Assembly: GCF_900129685.1 (NCBI RefSeq)
Contig: NZ_FQWM01000001.1
Coordinates: 62,001-126,000 of the forward strand
Reading direction: 5' to 3'
Length of the DNA: 64,000 bases
Source of the DNA: Cognatishimia maritima
Lineage (GTDB): Bacteria; Pseudomonadota; Alphaproteobacteria; Rhodobacterales; Rhodobacteraceae
Shown here: in pieces, positions 1 through 41,610 of the stretch
How the letters are laid out: each line of letters begins with the position of its first letter
Numbering within the stretch: position 1 is the stretch's first letter
Notes under the pieces: generated by a model
What the model saw: only the letters and a program-made list of their open reading frames with translations
Told to the model about the DNA's origin: nothing
The model's database searches: none
Translations under genes and position numbers: made by a program

Positions 1-1
1 G

Positions 2-1381
2 GAAACGGTGCTGGAAGAAATCGGGGTTGAGTTCCCAAGCAACCCGCGCGCCCTAGAGCGCTGGAAAGCCGCTGGGGCCAGCATTGATGGCACGCGGGTG
101 CGTATTCCGCGTGGACTGGCGCGCGACCTCTGCAAGACTGCGCCAAGCAAATTCACGCAACACGCACGCAACCCAGAAAAATCGGTTGAGATCGGTGGTA
201 ACACATTGGTTTGCGCGCCTGTCTATGGTCCGCCCTTTGTGCGCGACGAAAACGGTGGCCGTCGCTATGCAACAATGGATGATTTCCACAAGTTCGTGAA
301 ACTTGGCTACATGAGCAAATGGCTGCACCATTCTGGCGGCACGGTTTGTGAACCAACCGATGTGGCCGTGAACAAACGCCACCTTGATATGCTGCTTGCC
401 CATATGACGCTGTCTGACAAGCCTTTCATGGGCTCTGTGACCGCACCAAGCCGCGCGCAGGATTCGGTGGATATGTGCAAAATCCTCTTTGGAGAGGAGT
501 TTGTGCAAAATAACACCGTGATGACCTCGCTCATCAACATCAACTCGCCCTTGACCTTTGACGACATCATGATGGGTGCGCTGGAGGTCTATGCCGAAAA
601 CAACCAAGCCTGCATCGTTTCGCCGTTTATCGTAGGTGGCGCGATGGCACCGGTGTCTGTCGCCGGTACGCTGACGCAGGTATTTGCAGAGGTTCTGGCG
701 GGCATCGCTTACAGCCAATTGGTCCGCCCCGGTGCGCCGGTGATTTTTGGGGCCTTTGTGACCTCGATTGATATGGGGTCTGGCGCGCCGACCTTTGGCA
801 CTCCGGAAGCCAGCCAAATCCTGTACGGTGCGGGGCAATTGGCGCGTCGCATGAACTTACCGTTCCGCTCTGGCGGTGGGCTATGCGGGTCGAAATTGCC
901 TGATGCGCAAGCGGCCTATGAGACCGCGCACACACATAACGCAGCCCTTCTGGGTGGTGTGAACTTTATGCTGCACAGCTGTGGTTGGCTGGAAGGCGGT
1001 TTGGTGGCGTCCTTTGAGAAATTCGTGATGGATGCCGACCAGCTTGGTATTCTGCATAAGTTTGCCGCTGGTATTCCCATTGATGAAAACGGGCAGGGCA
1101 TGGATGCGCTGCGCGAAGTGGGGCCGGGTGGTCACTATCTGGGTTGTGCCCATACGCAGGCGAATTATCAGACGGCGTTCTGGCGGACCGAGGTTCTGGA
1201 TTACAAACCGTTTGAAACCTGGCAGGACGAAGGCGCGCGCGATACGCAAACTTTGGCGGCAAAGCGGGTTAATACGCTGCTGGATGCGTATCAGCGTCCG
1301 GCCATCGATCCGGCGATTGAAACCGCGTTGATTGCTTTTGTCACTGAAAAGAAAGCATCGATGCCTGACGCGTTGGAATAA
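2..1381 (+). CDS. MttB-like trimethylamine/betaine methyltransferase family protein (5' end cut)
   Basis: The reading frame is open from the window edge, so the true start lies upstream; about 459 residues are visible, close to the family's full length of roughly 500. Sequence features fit the MttB superfamily, for example SGGGLCGSKLPDAQ in the region where archaeal MttB carries pyrrolysine, and the C-terminal GGHYLGCAHT block. There is no in-frame amber codon, so this is the non-pyrrolysine type. Characterised members of that type demethylate quaternary amines such as glycine betaine and pass the methyl group to a corrinoid protein. The substrate cannot be told from sequence. The only corrinoid protein in the window lies 37 kb away and need not be its partner. 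An inverted repeat follows the stop. Confidence 0.85.
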   Translation, partial: ETVLEEIGVEFPSNPRALERWKAAGASIDGTRVRIPRGLARDLCKTAPSKFTQHARNPEKSVEIGGNTLVCAPVYGPPFVRDENGGRRYATMDDFHKFVKLGYMSKWLHHSGGTVCEPTDVAVNKRHLDMLLAHMTLSDKPFMGSVTAPSRAQDSVDMCKILFGEEFVQNNTVMTSLININSPLTFDDIMMGALEVYAENNQACIVSPFIVGGAMAPVSVAGTLTQVFAEVLAGIAYSQLVRPGAPVIFGAFVTSIDMGSGAPTFGTPEASQILYGAGQLARRMNLPFRSGGGLCGSKLPDAQAAYETAHTHNAALLGGVNFMLHSCGWLEGGLVASFEKFVMDADQLGILHKFAAGIPIDENGQGMDALREVGPGGHYLGCAHTQANYQTAFWRTEVLDYKPFETWQDEGARDTQTLAAKRVNTLLDAYQRPAIDPAIETALIAFVTEKKASMPDALE

Positions 1382-37261: not shown

Positions 37262-37885
37262 ATGGCAGGACAGACACCAAAATCACTTATTCAAGTTGCC
37301 CGCGAAAACGGCGCGCAAGAAGCGGCAGAACCTTTGGATCTGGGCGTGCGCGTGCGCGAGTTGCGGAAGGCACGCAATTGGACGTTGGAACAGGCCGCAA
37401 ATCAGGCAGGTTTGGCGCGCTCGACTTTGTCAAAGATCGAAAATGGGCAAATGTCCCCGACCTATGACGCGCTGAAAAAACTGGCGGAGGGGCTGGAAAT
37501 TTCCGTGCCGCAGCTTTTCACGCCGCCTGTCAAAGGCCAGATCAATGGGCGCTTGGCGGTGACCAAACAGGGCGAAGGCGCAAGCCGACCGACCGCGACT
37601 TATGAACACGAACTGCTGGCTGAAAACCTGACCAAGAAAAACATGCTGCCTTATCGCGCGCGCGTTCGCGCCCGCAAGATGGAAGAATTTGACGGATGGG
37701 TGCGCCATGATGGCGAAGAATTCCTTTATGTTCTGACAGGCGTCATCAAGCTTTACACGGAATTCTACGAACCCATCGAAATGCGGCGCGGTGACAGCGC
37801 CTATTACGACAGCTCCATGGGGCACAATGTCATTTCTGTCAGCGAAGAAGACGCCAGCATCCTTTGGGTGACATCGCTGGTTTAA
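37262..37885 (+). CDS. XRE-family regulator with cupin domain
   Basis: A 207-residue regulator. The HTH_3 domain covers about residues 22-80 (LGVRVRELRKARNWTLEQAA, then GLARSTLSKIENGQMSPTYD). The C-terminal cupin lies at about 130-205 (DGWVRHDGEEFLYVLTGVIK, then GDSAYYDSSMGHNV). Such proteins usually sense a small ligand, often in amine, polyamine or sulfur metabolism. It is divergent from the acyl-CoA synthetase and convergent with the DUF1638 gene; the two stops share TTAA. Confidence 0.93.
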   Translation: MAGQTPKSLIQVARENGAQEAAEPLDLGVRVRELRKARNWTLEQAANQAGLARSTLSKIENGQMSPTYDALKKLAEGLEISVPQLFTPPVKGQINGRLAVTKQGEGASRPTATYEHELLAENLTKKNMLPYRARVRARKMEEFDGWVRHDGEEFLYVLTGVIKLYTEFYEPIEMRRGDSAYYDSSMGHNVISVSEEDASILWVTSLV

Positions 37886-38541
37886 CGATTTGCCAGCGAT
37901 TTGAGGCTCGTGGCCAGATCGCCGTATCCTGTAAACCGATGTTCAAAGGTCAGGCCCAGCCGGTCTGCGCAATCCTTGGCTTTTGCGACCAATGCCGGGT
38001 CATCTGTCTGCGCCTGATAGACCAGCTTTTCATAGTTACCAAAAATCATGTCGCGCAGTTCAGGATGCCGGTCCAACCCCATGGGTTTCCAGACAAAAGC
38101 ATCAAATTGCCGGACCAAAAAGTCGGTCAGATAGAAGCTGGTGAATTCGGTTTCGGACAGTTCGGCGAACCGGTCATTGCCTTCGTAGAAGCTATAGCAA
38201 TGCGGGCCGGAGACCATTTCGACACCAAGGTCTTTGCAAGTGGTTTGCAATAGCCCGCCCGTACCGCAATCGGCGTAGACAACGAAGATGTCGTCATAGT
38301 TTCCACGTTCACGGGTCACTACCTCGCGCACAGCTTCGGGGATTTTCTCAGGACGGATGTGGTAAATCGCAGGAAGGCAGGTCAGAACCATATGGTCCCA
38401 GCCATTGGCCTCTTTCAAGGCCAAGATTTCACGCGCCAGCGCCCCGCAGGCCAAGAGGAGAATGCGCCCGGTCTCGGACGTAGCTTCCAACCCCCGATCG
38501 GTCAGGTGTTCATCGCTGATATTCTGCAAAGTCTCGCTCAT
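37882..38541 (-). CDS. DUF1638 domain protein, probable methionine synthase accessory
   Basis: A 219-residue soluble protein of family DUF1638. Conserved-looking Cys and His occur at Cys32 (LLACGALAREI), Cys92 (VYADCGTGGLL), Cys102 and HC at 114-115 (GPHCYSFYEG), which could bind a metal or cofactor; that is inference. DUF1638 genes are often near corrinoid methyltransferases. I recall genetic evidence in Phaeobacter that a DUF1638 protein is needed for a split methionine synthase. It follows the corrinoid gene by 69 bases with an intrinsic terminator between them. ATG at 38541 or 38544. Confidence 0.88.
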   Translation of the reverse strand: MSETLQNISDEHLTDRGLEATSETGRILLLACGALAREILALKEANGWDHMVLTCLPAIYHIRPEKIPEAVREVVTRERGNYDDIFVVYADCGTGGLLQTTCKDLGVEMVSGPHCYSFYEGNDRFAELSETEFTSFYLTDFLVRQFDAFVWKPMGLDRHPELRDMIFGNYEKLVYQAQTDDPALVAKAKDCADRLGLTFEHRFTGYGDLATSLKSLANR

Positions 38542-38552
38542 CATTCCCTCAA

Positions 38553-38585
38553 ACAAAAAAGCCTGCGCATTTCAGGCGCAGGCTC
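38553..38585 (-). terminator. intrinsic terminator between the corrinoid protein and DUF1638 genes
   Basis: On the minus strand AGCCTGCGC and GCGCAGGCT form a 9-bp stem with a 7-nt loop, followed by six Ts. The T-tract ends only 12 bases before the DUF1638 ATG, so transcripts reaching DUF1638 must read through it or start within it. Confidence 0.8.
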
Positions 38586-38610
38586 TTGTGTCGTGATGTC
38601 TGACAAAAGA

Positions 38611-39309
38611 TCAGGCGCTTAGTGCGTTGTGCTTGCGGCCCATGAACTCTTTGGCGGTTTCCACTGCAACCGCAGCGTCACGGCAATAGGCATCGGCCCC
38701 GATGGCCTTGCCAAATTCTTCGTTCAACGGCGCGCCGCCAACCAAAACAATGTAGTCGTCGCGCAGGCCTTTTTCGACAAGCGTGTCGATCACGACTTTC
38801 ATGTAAGGCATTGTCGTGGTCAGCAGGGCCGACATGCCAAGAATGTCAGGCTGTTCGCTTTCCAGTGCGTCCAGATAGCTTTCCACGGCGTTGTTGATGC
38901 CCAGATCAACCACTTCGAAACCCGCGCCTTCCATCATCATGCCAACAAGGTTCTTGCCGATGTCGTGAATGTCACCTTTGACGGTGCCAATGACCATCTT
39001 GCCGACACGCGGTGCGCCGGTTTCCACCAGCAATGGTTTCAAAATCGCCATGCCACCTTTCATGGCGTTCGCGGCCAAAAGAACCTCTGGCACAAACAGG
39101 ATACCGTCGCGGAAATCGTGGCCCACGATGGTCATGCCGCCCACAAGCGCTTCGGTCAGAATGCGGTAAGGTGACCACCCGCGTTCGAGAAGGATGTTCA
39201 CACCTTCCTCGATTTCCTCTTTGAGACCATCGTAAAGGTCGTCAAACATCTGATCGACAAGCTCTTCGTCGTTCAGTTCCGACAGGATGATTTCTTCTTC
39301 GTCTGACAT
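38611..39309 (-). CDS. corrinoid (cobalamin-binding) protein of a split methionine synthase
   Basis: A 232-residue cytoplasmic protein. Residues about 10-100 form the helical cap domain (GMTIVGHDFRDGILFVPEVL, AANAMKGGMAILKPL). Residues 103-232 are the B12-binding Rossmann domain with GDIHDIGKN (His115 is the lower cobalt ligand), GMSALLTTTMPYM and LVGGAPL. It carries methyl groups between methyltransferases. The homocysteine methyltransferase module lies nearby at 40600, so a split MetH is the best reading; a methylamine- or betaine-type partner is the alternative. A terminator follows. Confidence 0.93.
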   Translation of the reverse strand: MSDEEEIILSELNDEELVDQMFDDLYDGLKEEIEEGVNILLERGWSPYRILTEALVGGMTIVGHDFRDGILFVPEVLLAANAMKGGMAILKPLLVETGAPRVGKMVIGTVKGDIHDIGKNLVGMMMEGAGFEVVDLGINNAVESYLDALESEQPDILGMSALLTTTMPYMKVVIDTLVEKGLRDDYIVLVGGAPLNEEFGKAIGADAYCRDAAVAVETAKEFMGRKHNALSA

Positions 39310-39379
39310 TCAACTGTTCCTAGGGGTGGCTTTTATGTGCCGTCTTCATCTCATTTTCTCGCCGAAAGTCATGGTTTAA

Positions 39380-39407
39380 TTCCGACCTCGGCGCGTTCAG
39401 TTCCGAC
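39380..39407. promoter_or_regulatory. direct repeats TTCCGAC spaced 21 bp in the divergent corrinoid/radical SAM region
   Basis: TTCCGAC occurs at 39380-39386 and 39401-39407, two helical turns apart. The second abuts a minus-strand TATAAG (39407-39412) that could be a -10 element for the corrinoid gene, although no matching -35 is clear. This spacing suits two dimers or half-sites of a regulator. The 193-base region shows no cobalamin-riboswitch box. Confidence 0.3.
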
Positions 39408-39502
39408 TTATAGACTGGTTTCACAGGGAATGCTTTTGAAAAAAATTCATTGAGATCATGTGAGGAATTGCATTTGTTCTCTTTTTGTTCCAGATTTATC
39501 TC

Positions 39503-40591
39503 ATGTCTGCCAATGATGAGATCACAATCGAACAGAAACGCCGCCGTGCACGCGGGGCCATCAGCAATGCAAGCGGTCGATATGAAACCGCAGAGCGGGT
39601 TGAAACGCATGACGGTTGGGACATTGCAGAAGATCGGGCCAGCTTTGTCACCCATGTTGTGGAAGAACATGCCAAGTCGATCATCACCCGGAATACTTCG
39701 CCCGATTTGCCGTTTGATCGGTCCATCAACATGTACCGTGGCTGCGAACATGGTTGCATCTATTGTTTTGCGCGCCCGACGCACGCCTATCTGGGGTATT
39801 CGCCCGGCCTTGATTTTGAAACGCGATTGATCGCCAAGGTCAATGCCGCGGCGCTGCTGGACAATGAGTTGCGCAAAAGGGGTTATGGGGTGGCTCCGAT
39901 AGCGATTGGTACCAATACTGACCCCTATCAGCCGATCGATAAATCGCTGCAATTGATGCGGGAATGCCTTTCGGTCTTGCAGAATTTCCATCACCCGGTG
40001 GCGATTGTCACCAAAGGCACTCTGATAGAACGGGACATTGATATACTGTCTGACATGGCGGCGCAGGGGCTTGTGCATGTGGGAGTGTCTGTCACCTCGC
40101 TTGACAATCGCACCTCGCGGCTGATGGAGCCTCGGGCGCCGGTTCCTGCGCGGCGGCTGGCCTTGATCGAAAGGTTGTCAAAGGCGGGCATCCCGGTGCG
40201 TGTGATGCTGGCGCCGATTGTGCCGGGCATCAACGATCACGAAATTGAACGTATCTTTGGATCTGCCGCGCAAGCCGGGGCCAAGGCGGCCAGTTGGATT
40301 GCGCTTCGGTTGCCGCTTGAGGTGTCGGACCTGTTTCAAGAGTGGCTGAAGGCTCATTTCCCGGATCGCGCGGGTAAAGTGATGAAGCAAGTCTGCGACA
40401 TGCATGGCGGTCAACCCTACGACCCCGAATGGGGCAAACGCATGCGCGGAGAGGGGCATTACGCCGAAATCATGGCCCATCGTGCAGCGCTTGCGATGCG
40501 CAAAAACGGGTTGGTGAAACACCTACCAGCCCTGCGCACCGATCTTTTTGCGGTGCCCTATGAACAGGGCAACCAACTGAGTTTGTTCTGA
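39503..40591 (+). CDS. PA0069-family radical SAM protein
   Basis: A 362-residue protein with the radical SAM cluster motif in YRGCEHGCIYCFARPTH (CxxxCxxC). Further family blocks are IAIGTNTDPYQPID, VTKGTLIERDIDIL and LAPIVPGINDHEIE. It is of the spore-photoproduct-lyase-like type; the substrate is not known. ATG at 39503 (MSANDEITIEQKRRRARG). It lies between the corrinoid gene and the homocysteine methyltransferase gene on the opposite strand; I recall the same order in other Roseobacters. Confidence 0.9.
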   Translation: MSANDEITIEQKRRRARGAISNASGRYETAERVETHDGWDIAEDRASFVTHVVEEHAKSIITRNTSPDLPFDRSINMYRGCEHGCIYCFARPTHAYLGYSPGLDFETRLIAKVNAAALLDNELRKRGYGVAPIAIGTNTDPYQPIDKSLQLMRECLSVLQNFHHPVAIVTKGTLIERDIDILSDMAAQGLVHVGVSVTSLDNRTSRLMEPRAPVPARRLALIERLSKAGIPVRVMLAPIVPGINDHEIERIFGSAAQAGAKAASWIALRLPLEVSDLFQEWLKAHFPDRAGKVMKQVCDMHGGQPYDPEWGKRMRGEGHYAEIMAHRAALAMRKNGLVKHLPALRTDLFAVPYEQGNQLSLF

Positions 40592-40599
40592 GTTTCCGA

Positions 40600-41610
40600 T
40601 TAGCCCCGGCGACGGCGACGGCGTTTTGGTGCGTCTCCGCCTTCTTCGGTGCCGTCCTGCGCGGAAGAAAAACCGCCGAGGGCTTCGGTGATCTTTTCTA
40701 GCGATGGGCGATCCGATTTTTCGCGTGTTTCCAGCGCTTCTTTCATGGCCACCAGATGCTCACCCTTGGTGCCACAGCAGCCGCCGATGATCGTTGCACC
40801 TGCATCGCGCGCCATGACAGCATATTCCGCCATCAGGGGCGGTGTGCCGTCATAATGAATGTGCCCGTCTTCATATTTCGGGATGCCCGCATTGCCTTTG
40901 GAAATAATCGGGCGCTCTGTGCCTTGTGCCGAAAAGCCCAAAACTGTGCGCAGCAAATCAGACGCGCCTACGCCGCAGTTTGCGCCAAAGCCAATTGGTG
41001 GATTGGGCAGGTCTTCGACCAGTTTCACAAGATCAGCAGAGGTCACACCCATCATGGTGCGCCCTGCGGTATCAAAACTCATTGTGCCACACCAAGGCAT
41101 GCCAGCCAGCGCAAAACCTTCAGCGGCGGCGCGGAATTCTTCGGGGGCCGAAATGGTTTCCAGCCACAGCACGTCTGCGCCGCCTTCTTTCAGCCCCTCA
41201 GCCTGTTCATGGAACATCTCAACCGCGCTCTCATGGGACAGAGACCCGACAGGCTGCATGATTTCGCCGGTCGGGCCGACTGAGCCAGCAACGACAACTG
41301 TACGACCAGAGGCGTCAGCAACTTCGCGGCCAAGCTCTGCGGCGATGCGGTTCAATTCTCGCACGCGCTTTTCTGCATTGTGTAGTTTCAGACGCGAGGC
41401 ATTGCCGCCAAAAGAATTGGTCAGGAAAAGGTCGCTCCCTGCATCCACGGCGATCCGATAAAGCGCCTTGATCTTTTCAGGTTCATCGACATTCCAAAGC
41501 TCTGGGGCATCGCCTGACATCAAGCCCATGTTGAACAGGTTGGTGCCAGTTGCGCCGTCTGCCAACAGCCAGTCGCGTGTTTCCAGCAGGCGGGTCAGTG
41601 CGTTTGTCAT
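40600..41610 (-). CDS. bmt: homocysteine S-methyltransferase module (split methionine synthase or betaine type)
   Basis: A 336-residue Hcy-binding TIM barrel. The zinc ligands are Cys212 (FGANCGVG) and the CysCys pair 278-279 (GGCCG). It starts DWLLADGATGTNLF, as in MetH and BHMT. It lacks pterin and B12 domains. Databases commonly call such proteins betaine-homocysteine methyltransferase. Its place beside a corrinoid protein and DUF1638 favours the homocysteine subunit of a split cobalamin-dependent methionine synthase. ATG at 41610 has AAGGA 8 bases upstream. An odd KRRRRRRG tail ends the protein. Confidence 0.9.
   Translation of the reverse strand: MTNALTRLLETRDWLLADGATGTNLFNMGLMSGDAPELWNVDEPEKIKALYRIAVDAGSDLFLTNSFGGNASRLKLHNAEKRVRELNRIAAELGREVADASGRTVVVAGSVGPTGEIMQPVGSLSHESAVEMFHEQAEGLKEGGADVLWLETISAPEEFRAAAEGFALAGMPWCGTMSFDTAGRTMMGVTSADLVKLVEDLPNPPIGFGANCGVGASDLLRTVLGFSAQGTERPIISKGNAGIPKYEDGHIHYDGTPPLMAEYAVMARDAGATIIGGCCGTKGEHLVAMKEALETREKSDRPSLEKITEALGGFSSAQDGTEEGGDAPKRRRRRRG

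Follow-up and report, generated by a model that had tools for sequence, protein, structure and literature searches.

A probable split cobalamin-dependent methionine synthase in Cognatishimia maritima, with arginine-rich tails on three of its proteins

A methionine synthase built from three separate proteins was demonstrated in Phaeobacter inhibens, where a RamA-like protein and a DUF1638 protein are also needed and where mutants in the DUF1638 gene, the RamA-like gene and the three split genes are rescued by methionine (Price et al., 2018, PMC5764234). In Ruegeria pomeroyi, the proteins MtgC and MtgD work in methionine synthesis as well as in betaine demethylation, the homocysteine module has been named MtgE, and mtgC and mtgD mutants of strain DSS-3 are methionine auxotrophs that do not grow on betaine (Mausz et al., 2025, PMC12478193). 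The present analysis concerns a 64,000-nucleotide stretch of Cognatishimia maritima (the window; G000:C3:62001-126000, contig NZ_FQWM01000001.1) from a genome of 3.28 Mb that is 99.37% complete. A gene cluster within it is, with a probability of about 0.92, the core of a split, cobalamin-dependent methionine synthase; this figure applies to the synthase itself and excludes the model for protein tails developed below. The system is already known in print, and the locus is a further case of what was described in 2018 and 2025, although the P. inhibens system is known by genetics and that of C. maritima from its genes alone. The features of the window that bear on this reading are as follows.

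37882..38541, minus strand: DUF1638 protein of 219 residues (PF07796, 107.8 bits against a cut-off of 27)
38611..39309, minus strand: MtgC, a cap plus B12-binding corrinoid protein of 232 residues (PF02607, 63.4 bits; PF02310, 89.3 bits)
39250..39309, minus strand: acidic N-terminal extension of MtgC, a putative docking site (judged by its charge, which is kept in relatives)
39485..40591, plus strand: PA0069-family radical S-adenosylmethionine (SAM) protein of 368 residues (NF033668, 500.5 bits against a cut-off of 360)
40600..41610, minus strand: MtgE (also called Bmt), a homocysteine S-methyltransferase module of 336 residues (PF02574 alone, 199.6 bits)
40603..40626, minus strand: arginine-rich C-terminal tail of MtgE, KRRRRRRG
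1..1381 (open reading frame 8-1381), plus strand: 3' part of an MTTB-family methyltransferase gene (PF06253, 768 bits; whole gene at L052:6838-8382)

The genes for the DUF1638 protein, MtgC, the radical SAM protein and MtgE had been proposed, with their domains, in a preliminary description of this DNA made from the letters alone, and the open reading frames (ORFs) and the Pfam and NCBIfam matches agree with it. mtgC and the DUF1638 gene lie on the same strand with 69 bases between them, and the radical SAM gene stands on the plus strand between the minus-strand mtgC and mtgE. The motif GDIHDIGKN occupies residues 112-120 of MtgC, and a CxxxCxxC motif is found at residue 87 of the radical SAM protein. 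MtgC and the DUF1638 protein are 90% and 70% identical, respectively, to proteins of R. pomeroyi SZCCDBG043, and in P. inhibens the gene numbers c13340, c13350, c13360 and c13370 belong to the DUF1638 protein, the corrinoid protein, the radical SAM protein and the methyltransferase (Price et al., 2018, PMC5764234). The window edge cuts the MTTB gene, whose first 164 bases, including those for the basic N-terminus, fall outside. The methyltetrahydrofolate module and the reactivation protein had been expected elsewhere, and both were found on the same genome, together with the MTTB proteins:

C3:140374-141447: MtgD, a stand-alone pterin methyltransferase of 357 residues (NF005719, 395.8 bits)
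C3:247041-249113: RACo/RamA-type reactivase of 690 residues, with 2Fe-2S, linker, middle and C-terminal domains
C3:61837-63381 and C3:381266-382807: two MTTB proteins (PF06253), the first of them the gene at the window edge

The genome thus encodes stand-alone PF02574, cap plus B12-binding and pterin proteins together with RACo and DUF1638 proteins, as in the three-part synthase of P. inhibens (Price et al., 2018, PMC5764234), and the two PF06253 proteins would supply the MTTB partner of an MtgBCD betaine demethylase. The NF005719 match names MtgD a methyltetrahydrofolate:corrinoid methyltransferase. Only one other protein of the genome matches PF00809, at C8:112994, and from its score it is presumably a dihydropteroate synthase; the RACo-type protein is the single match to PF14574. 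A canonical MetH uses the same chemistry and the same domain families, but its modules are fused and include the activation domain PF02965, whereas here they are separate genes and PF02965 has no match in the genome (7 of 14 control genomes do match), as in P. inhibens. A full MetE was likewise not found in a search with PF01717, in which PF08267 was not included; this returned only a core-MetE-like protein of 377 residues, whose two PF01717 stretches score 55.8 bits together. The proposal that the cluster is the split system was therefore borne out by the separate modules, the absence of PF02965 and the recovery of the missing parts, and the Phaeobacter genetics invoked in its support, of a split MetH that needs DUF1638, match those of Price et al. 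(2018, PMC5764234). The core-MetE-like protein and a second PF02574 protein weigh on the other side, the latter as a protein that could provide an alternative route to methionine; P. inhibens also has a core-MetE-like gene, and its bmt mutant is nonetheless a methionine auxotroph (Narvaez-Barragan et al., FEBS J, 2025, PMC12366255). The second PF02574 protein (C4:64626; L055:2121-3059) is without an arginine tail.

Across 30 genomes (that of the window and relatives), DUF1638 is present in 17, RACo in 19 and MTTB in the same 19; RACo accompanies DUF1638 in all 17, of which 14 are without PF02965. The two genomes with RACo and without DUF1638 are G016, 82% complete, and G024, 93% complete in 810 contigs and with a partial match. 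A genome of the same genus (G008) has a MetH with PF02965, whereas DUF1638, RACo, MTTB and the stand-alone pterin protein are all missing from it; as the mirror image of the window's genome, it supports the split synthase. The MetH of G008 is encoded by two overlapping ORFs (L056:4872-8698), for a homocysteine module of 366 residues and for a protein of 909 residues with pterin, B12 and activation domains, and in several other relatives PF02574 and PF00809 fall in open frames of differing length.

The roles of the modules are assigned through family membership and genetic work published on P. inhibens and R. pomeroyi. MtgD would transfer the methyl group of methyltetrahydrofolate to cob(I)alamin on MtgC, and MtgE, with a zinc homocysteine site of three cysteines, would take the methyl group from MtgC and release methionine. 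Oxidised cobalamin would be reduced by the RACo/RamA-type protein via its 2Fe-2S domain, a reactivation branch in which the DUF1638 protein is expected to be required, and the MTTB proteins (MtgB) probably feed methyl groups of the betaine type into the same MtgC. The MtgBCDE system of R. pomeroyi is alike in having mtgD and MTTB (pfam06253) genes and a gene beside mtgD at the place of metF2 (Mausz et al., 2025, PMC12478193). The corresponding gene here, directly upstream of mtgD (C3:141457-142428; L050:3458-4429), encodes a protein of 323 residues that, unlike the named metF2 of R. pomeroyi, matches nothing in Pfam or NCBIfam at the thresholds applied; it adjoins mtgD in most of the relatives read.

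Cys212, Cys278 and Cys279 of MtgE align with cysteines of MetH homocysteine modules, and we take them to be the zinc ligands. The protein might instead be mainly a true betaine or dimethylsulfoniopropionate (DMSP):homocysteine methyltransferase that acts alone, with the neighbouring B12 genes serving other substrates. NCBIfam favours this by name, since MtgE matches the equivalog betaine--homocysteine S-methyltransferase (NF005718, 603.3 bits against a cut-off of 338), exactly the label that the preliminary description had foreseen and had called misleading. The purified P. inhibens enzyme also needs neither folate nor B12 to form methionine from betaine and DMSP in vitro, as assayed with 200 uM enzyme over 2 h (Narvaez-Barragan et al., 2025, PMC12366255). 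Direct use of betaine had been named as an outcome that would overturn the split reading, and the in vitro activity comes near to it. The P. inhibens bmt mutant retains some residual growth without methionine, a further point against the split reading, but it is a methionine auxotroph, and under standard conditions Bmt does not substitute for DmdA in vivo (Narvaez-Barragan et al., 2025, PMC12366255). Auxotrophy of the R. pomeroyi mtgC and mtgD mutants, and the reported absence of betaine-binding residues in Sinorhizobium meliloti and other marine homologs, also argue against an enzyme acting alone (Mausz et al., 2025, PMC12478193). MtgE shares the PF02574 fold with betaine-homocysteine methyltransferases (BHMTs), but its sequence is closer to MetH: the nearest relative in the Protein Data Bank (PDB) is the MetH homocysteine/folate fragment 1q7m (126.4 bits), and the best BHMT reaches 50.3 bits. 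A BHMT acting alone is accordingly improbable. That the label misleads remains contested in print, argued likewise by Mausz et al. (2025, PMC12478193) and opposed by the in vitro use of betaine and DMSP.

A second departure from the split synthase as described would make the radical SAM protein a cobalamin reactivase or other essential part. Thole et al. proposed a role in B12 activation (cited in Price et al., 2018, PMC5764234), and the gene lies between mtgE and mtgC in 45 of the 57 named loci that have both. It is absent from that position in the other 12, however, and among the 17 genomes read (the window's included) it belongs to the cluster in 11, the remaining six having been searched in the cluster only and not over the rest of the genome. 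In minimal medium, moreover, the P. inhibens gene showed no effect on fitness (Price et al., 2018, PMC5764234). An essential role is therefore very improbable, and the gene is a frequent but optional neighbour; its role, left open in the preliminary description, is answered in part by the absence of a fitness effect in P. inhibens and by its inconstant membership of the cluster.

The feature of the split synthase that is apparently new is a set of arginine-rich C-terminal tails. In the window's genome MtgE ends in KRRRRRRG, MtgD in GGRGRRGGGRRRRA and RACo in NRRRRRRG. A tail was counted where at least five of the last 15 residues are lysine or arginine, with sequences held distinct by their last 60 residues, and the MetH locus of G008 (L056) and five distant loci (L184-L188) were set apart before counting. 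Tails are present in 75 of 75 MtgE, 29 of 29 RACo and 25 of 28 MtgD sequences, against 0 of 107 for DUF1638, 0 of 19 for the protein beside mtgD, 0 of 71 for the radical SAM protein and 4 of 99 for MtgC; none of the five more distant RACo proteins (L184-L188) has one, and the MetH proteins of G008 end without one. With six of the last 12 residues required, 15 of 15 MtgE, 24 of 27 RACo and 16 of 22 MtgD proteins qualify, as do 3 of 475 other ORFs (unverified) taken from the stretches compared and 1 of the 52 ORFs picked in the window, which is MtgE. Among 74 distinct MtgE proteins, lysine and arginine make up 3% of the stretch before the tail and account for 4-8 of the last 10 residues. The tail sequence varies while its basic charge is kept, and tails persist at GC contents of 0.48 (L171) and 0.67 (L175). 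Lowering the requirement to four basic residues gives 27 of 28 for MtgD, 1 of 71 for the radical SAM protein and one of two distant DUF1638 proteins.

The catalytic domains of these enzymes have homologs of known structure in anaerobic RACo (3zyy), MtgB of Desulfitobacterium hafniense (2qne, 9yce), MttB (7xcl) and MeTr (2yci). Alignments to these anaerobic homologs end before the tails and begin after the basic N-terminus, that to RACo covering residues 19-656 of 690 with 9 residues remaining in 3zyy. At the DNA level, a pattern of five CGN codons occurs at 8 places genome-wide and at 9 in a control, with mtgE the only case in frame at the end of an ORF of at least 60 residues, and it is a pattern that misses tails written with AGA or AGG or with four arginines, including those of RACo and MtgD of this genome; a permissive pattern of four arginine codons near a stop gave no usable count (at least 419 places against at least 441 in the reversed control). 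No paper on the tails was found in a search of PubMed Central (PMC) articles, which left subscription papers and supplements outside; the main text of Price et al. (2018, PMC5764234) has no mention of "arginine-rich", "tail" or "docking", and that of Mausz et al. (2025, PMC12478193) none of "arginine", "tail" or "docking".

The tailed proteins have MtgC as their common partner, so that docking on the N-terminus of MtgC is the simplest reading of the tails. MtgC has the lowest isoelectric point of 15 proteins compared (4.28, net charge -24), and its first 40 residues carry a net charge of -15. In 116 of 117 rows, some loci being entered twice, the first 25 residues have a net charge of -8 or lower, the exception being a truncated ORF. 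Alignments of MtgC to solved corrinoid proteins begin at residue 13 or later, and in the structural model, which is of middling confidence (mean predicted local distance difference test, pLDDT, 75.7), residues 1-4 fall below 50, so the very N-terminus is probably flexible. We infer a charge code in which the tails of MtgE, MtgD and RACo, possibly joined by the basic N-terminus of MTTB, would dock reversibly and in turn on the acidic start of MtgC, non-covalent tails standing in for the covalent interdomain linkers of MetH. This model is held tentatively, at rather less than even odds, and several observations count against it. The enzymes proposed to dock (MtgE, MtgD, RACo and MTTB) each have a net negative charge of their own, and with -48 in total the 909-residue MetH protein of G008 is more strongly negative than MtgC. 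With a requirement of four basic residues, 24 of 99 MtgC proteins and the sole distant MtgD (L187, 1 of 1) also pass the tail test, and the distant control set comprises five loci only.

The tails may also be read as binding RNA, DNA, polyphosphate or membranes, or as forming condensates, without specific docking on MtgC. That their sequence varies with charge kept suits such a role, and tails like GGRGRRGGGRRRRA resemble RG-rich tails that bind polyanions. Among the proteins compared, however, the tails are limited to enzymes that act on one acidic protein, and the corrinoid proteins of the five distant loci (L184-L188), whose RACo proteins are tail-less, start without an acidic stretch when inspected by eye. 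General polyanion binding is plausible on this evidence but somewhat doubtful.

For MTTB the docking model is weaker than for the C-terminal tails. In the window's genome the MTTB protein starts with MGEAPTRRRSRSGGGAARRAER. Counted from aligned positions, 20 of 20 further MTTB paralogs from five genomes, 26-84% identical to the two of the window's genome, have an N-terminal net charge of +4 to +8, and the same range holds in a count of 21 of 21 MTTB proteins including those two. A net charge of at least +4 in the first 40 residues is, however, also found in 121 of 475 other ORFs and in 9 of the 52 ORFs of the window, a further point against the docking model. Basic N-termini being this common, the charge of the MTTB N-terminus is by itself weak evidence, and the comparison with the 475 ORFs makes docking slightly less probable. 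Eight lysine or arginine residues within residues 2-26 occur in 3 of 17 MTTB1 rows and in 18 of the 475 others, and the MTTB protein of the window's genome has seven. A better argument than charge is a recurring pattern, seen by eye in many MTTB proteins, of an arginine-rich run, a glycine and then ARR.xR, which is looser in L314, L315, L319 and L321. The MTTB structure 4yyc, which we take to be from S. meliloti, aligns from residue 7 through the basic stretch. The second MTTB gene also contains an Rfam PYLIS_3 match above threshold (L053:2817-2916), with no in-frame TAG, that probably reflects homology of the coding sequence.

The DUF1638 protein keeps close company with RACo. Across 398 genomes of the phylum, full-length DUF1638 is present in 52 of 53 RACo genomes, a count that leaves out weak partial matches of 27.7-43.3 bits in G058, G065, G101, G197 and G201; when these five are counted, 5 of 57 DUF1638 genomes are without RACo. 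The association agrees with the profile that Price et al. (2018, PMC5764234) give for 158 genomes. As the genomes are related, a Fisher value computed for such counts does not represent a probability of independent events. DUF1638 is also found close to RACo and a corrinoid protein in the tail-less loci L184 and L185, which suggests a role tied to reactivation in general. At L187 (G219, of the alphaproteobacterial class), RACo, a corrinoid protein and a pterin methyltransferase stand together with no DUF1638 and no arginine-rich RACo tail. By title, the best 80 of 580 DUF1638 relatives belong to Rhodobacteraceae or Rhodobacterales, apart from two metagenome-assembled genomes (MAGs) given simply as Alphaproteobacteria (L203, L236) and one as Exiguobacterium profundum (L240); the DUF1638 protein of the last, a MAG chromosome, is 72% identical to that of the window, and the title looks misnamed.

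Instead of serving as an electron-transfer partner of RACo, the DUF1638 protein could load or deliver cobalamin or hold a metal through a set of cysteine and histidine residues. Twelve sequences, including two with only 20-21% identity to the window protein, all keep Cys32, His61, Cys92 and Cys115. In the AlphaFold model (mean pLDDT 93.1, predicted template modelling score 0.87), Cys32 is placed at the end of strand 27-32 and Cys92 four residues past strand 84-88, at or near strand ends, as might suit such a site. The association with RACo ties the protein to the reactivase but by itself cannot choose between these roles, and no significant solved relative was found by sequence (best E value 0.033) or in a PDB fold search (best E value 0.0071). 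A metal or corrinoid role is a guess, to which we give not far short of an even chance.

Around the cluster, a gene for a regulator with helix-turn-helix (HTH) and cupin domains (37262-37885) converges on the DUF1638 gene with an overlap of four bases, and an HTH-cupin regulator adjoins DUF1638 in all eight of the g1 genomes read and in 4 of 80 named loci. No riboswitch was found at the Rfam gathering threshold in the window or in L050-L053 and L056.

Taken as a whole, the preliminary description was a correct observation of a known system, to which the tails add a structural feature that is possibly new. DUF1638 is a required protein in P. inhibens, and its tight link with RACo singles it out for further work. 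MetH has to select among its homocysteine, folate and reactivation states, and how it does so is a classic question; where the partners are separate proteins with tails, partner choice can be tested by removing a dozen residues. If docking on MtgC is correct, any protein with an end of this kind could connect to that one methyl hub. Such ends, should they prove to mark MtgC clients, might also help in sorting the many MTTB-family methyltransferases that lack an assignment in aerobic bacteria.

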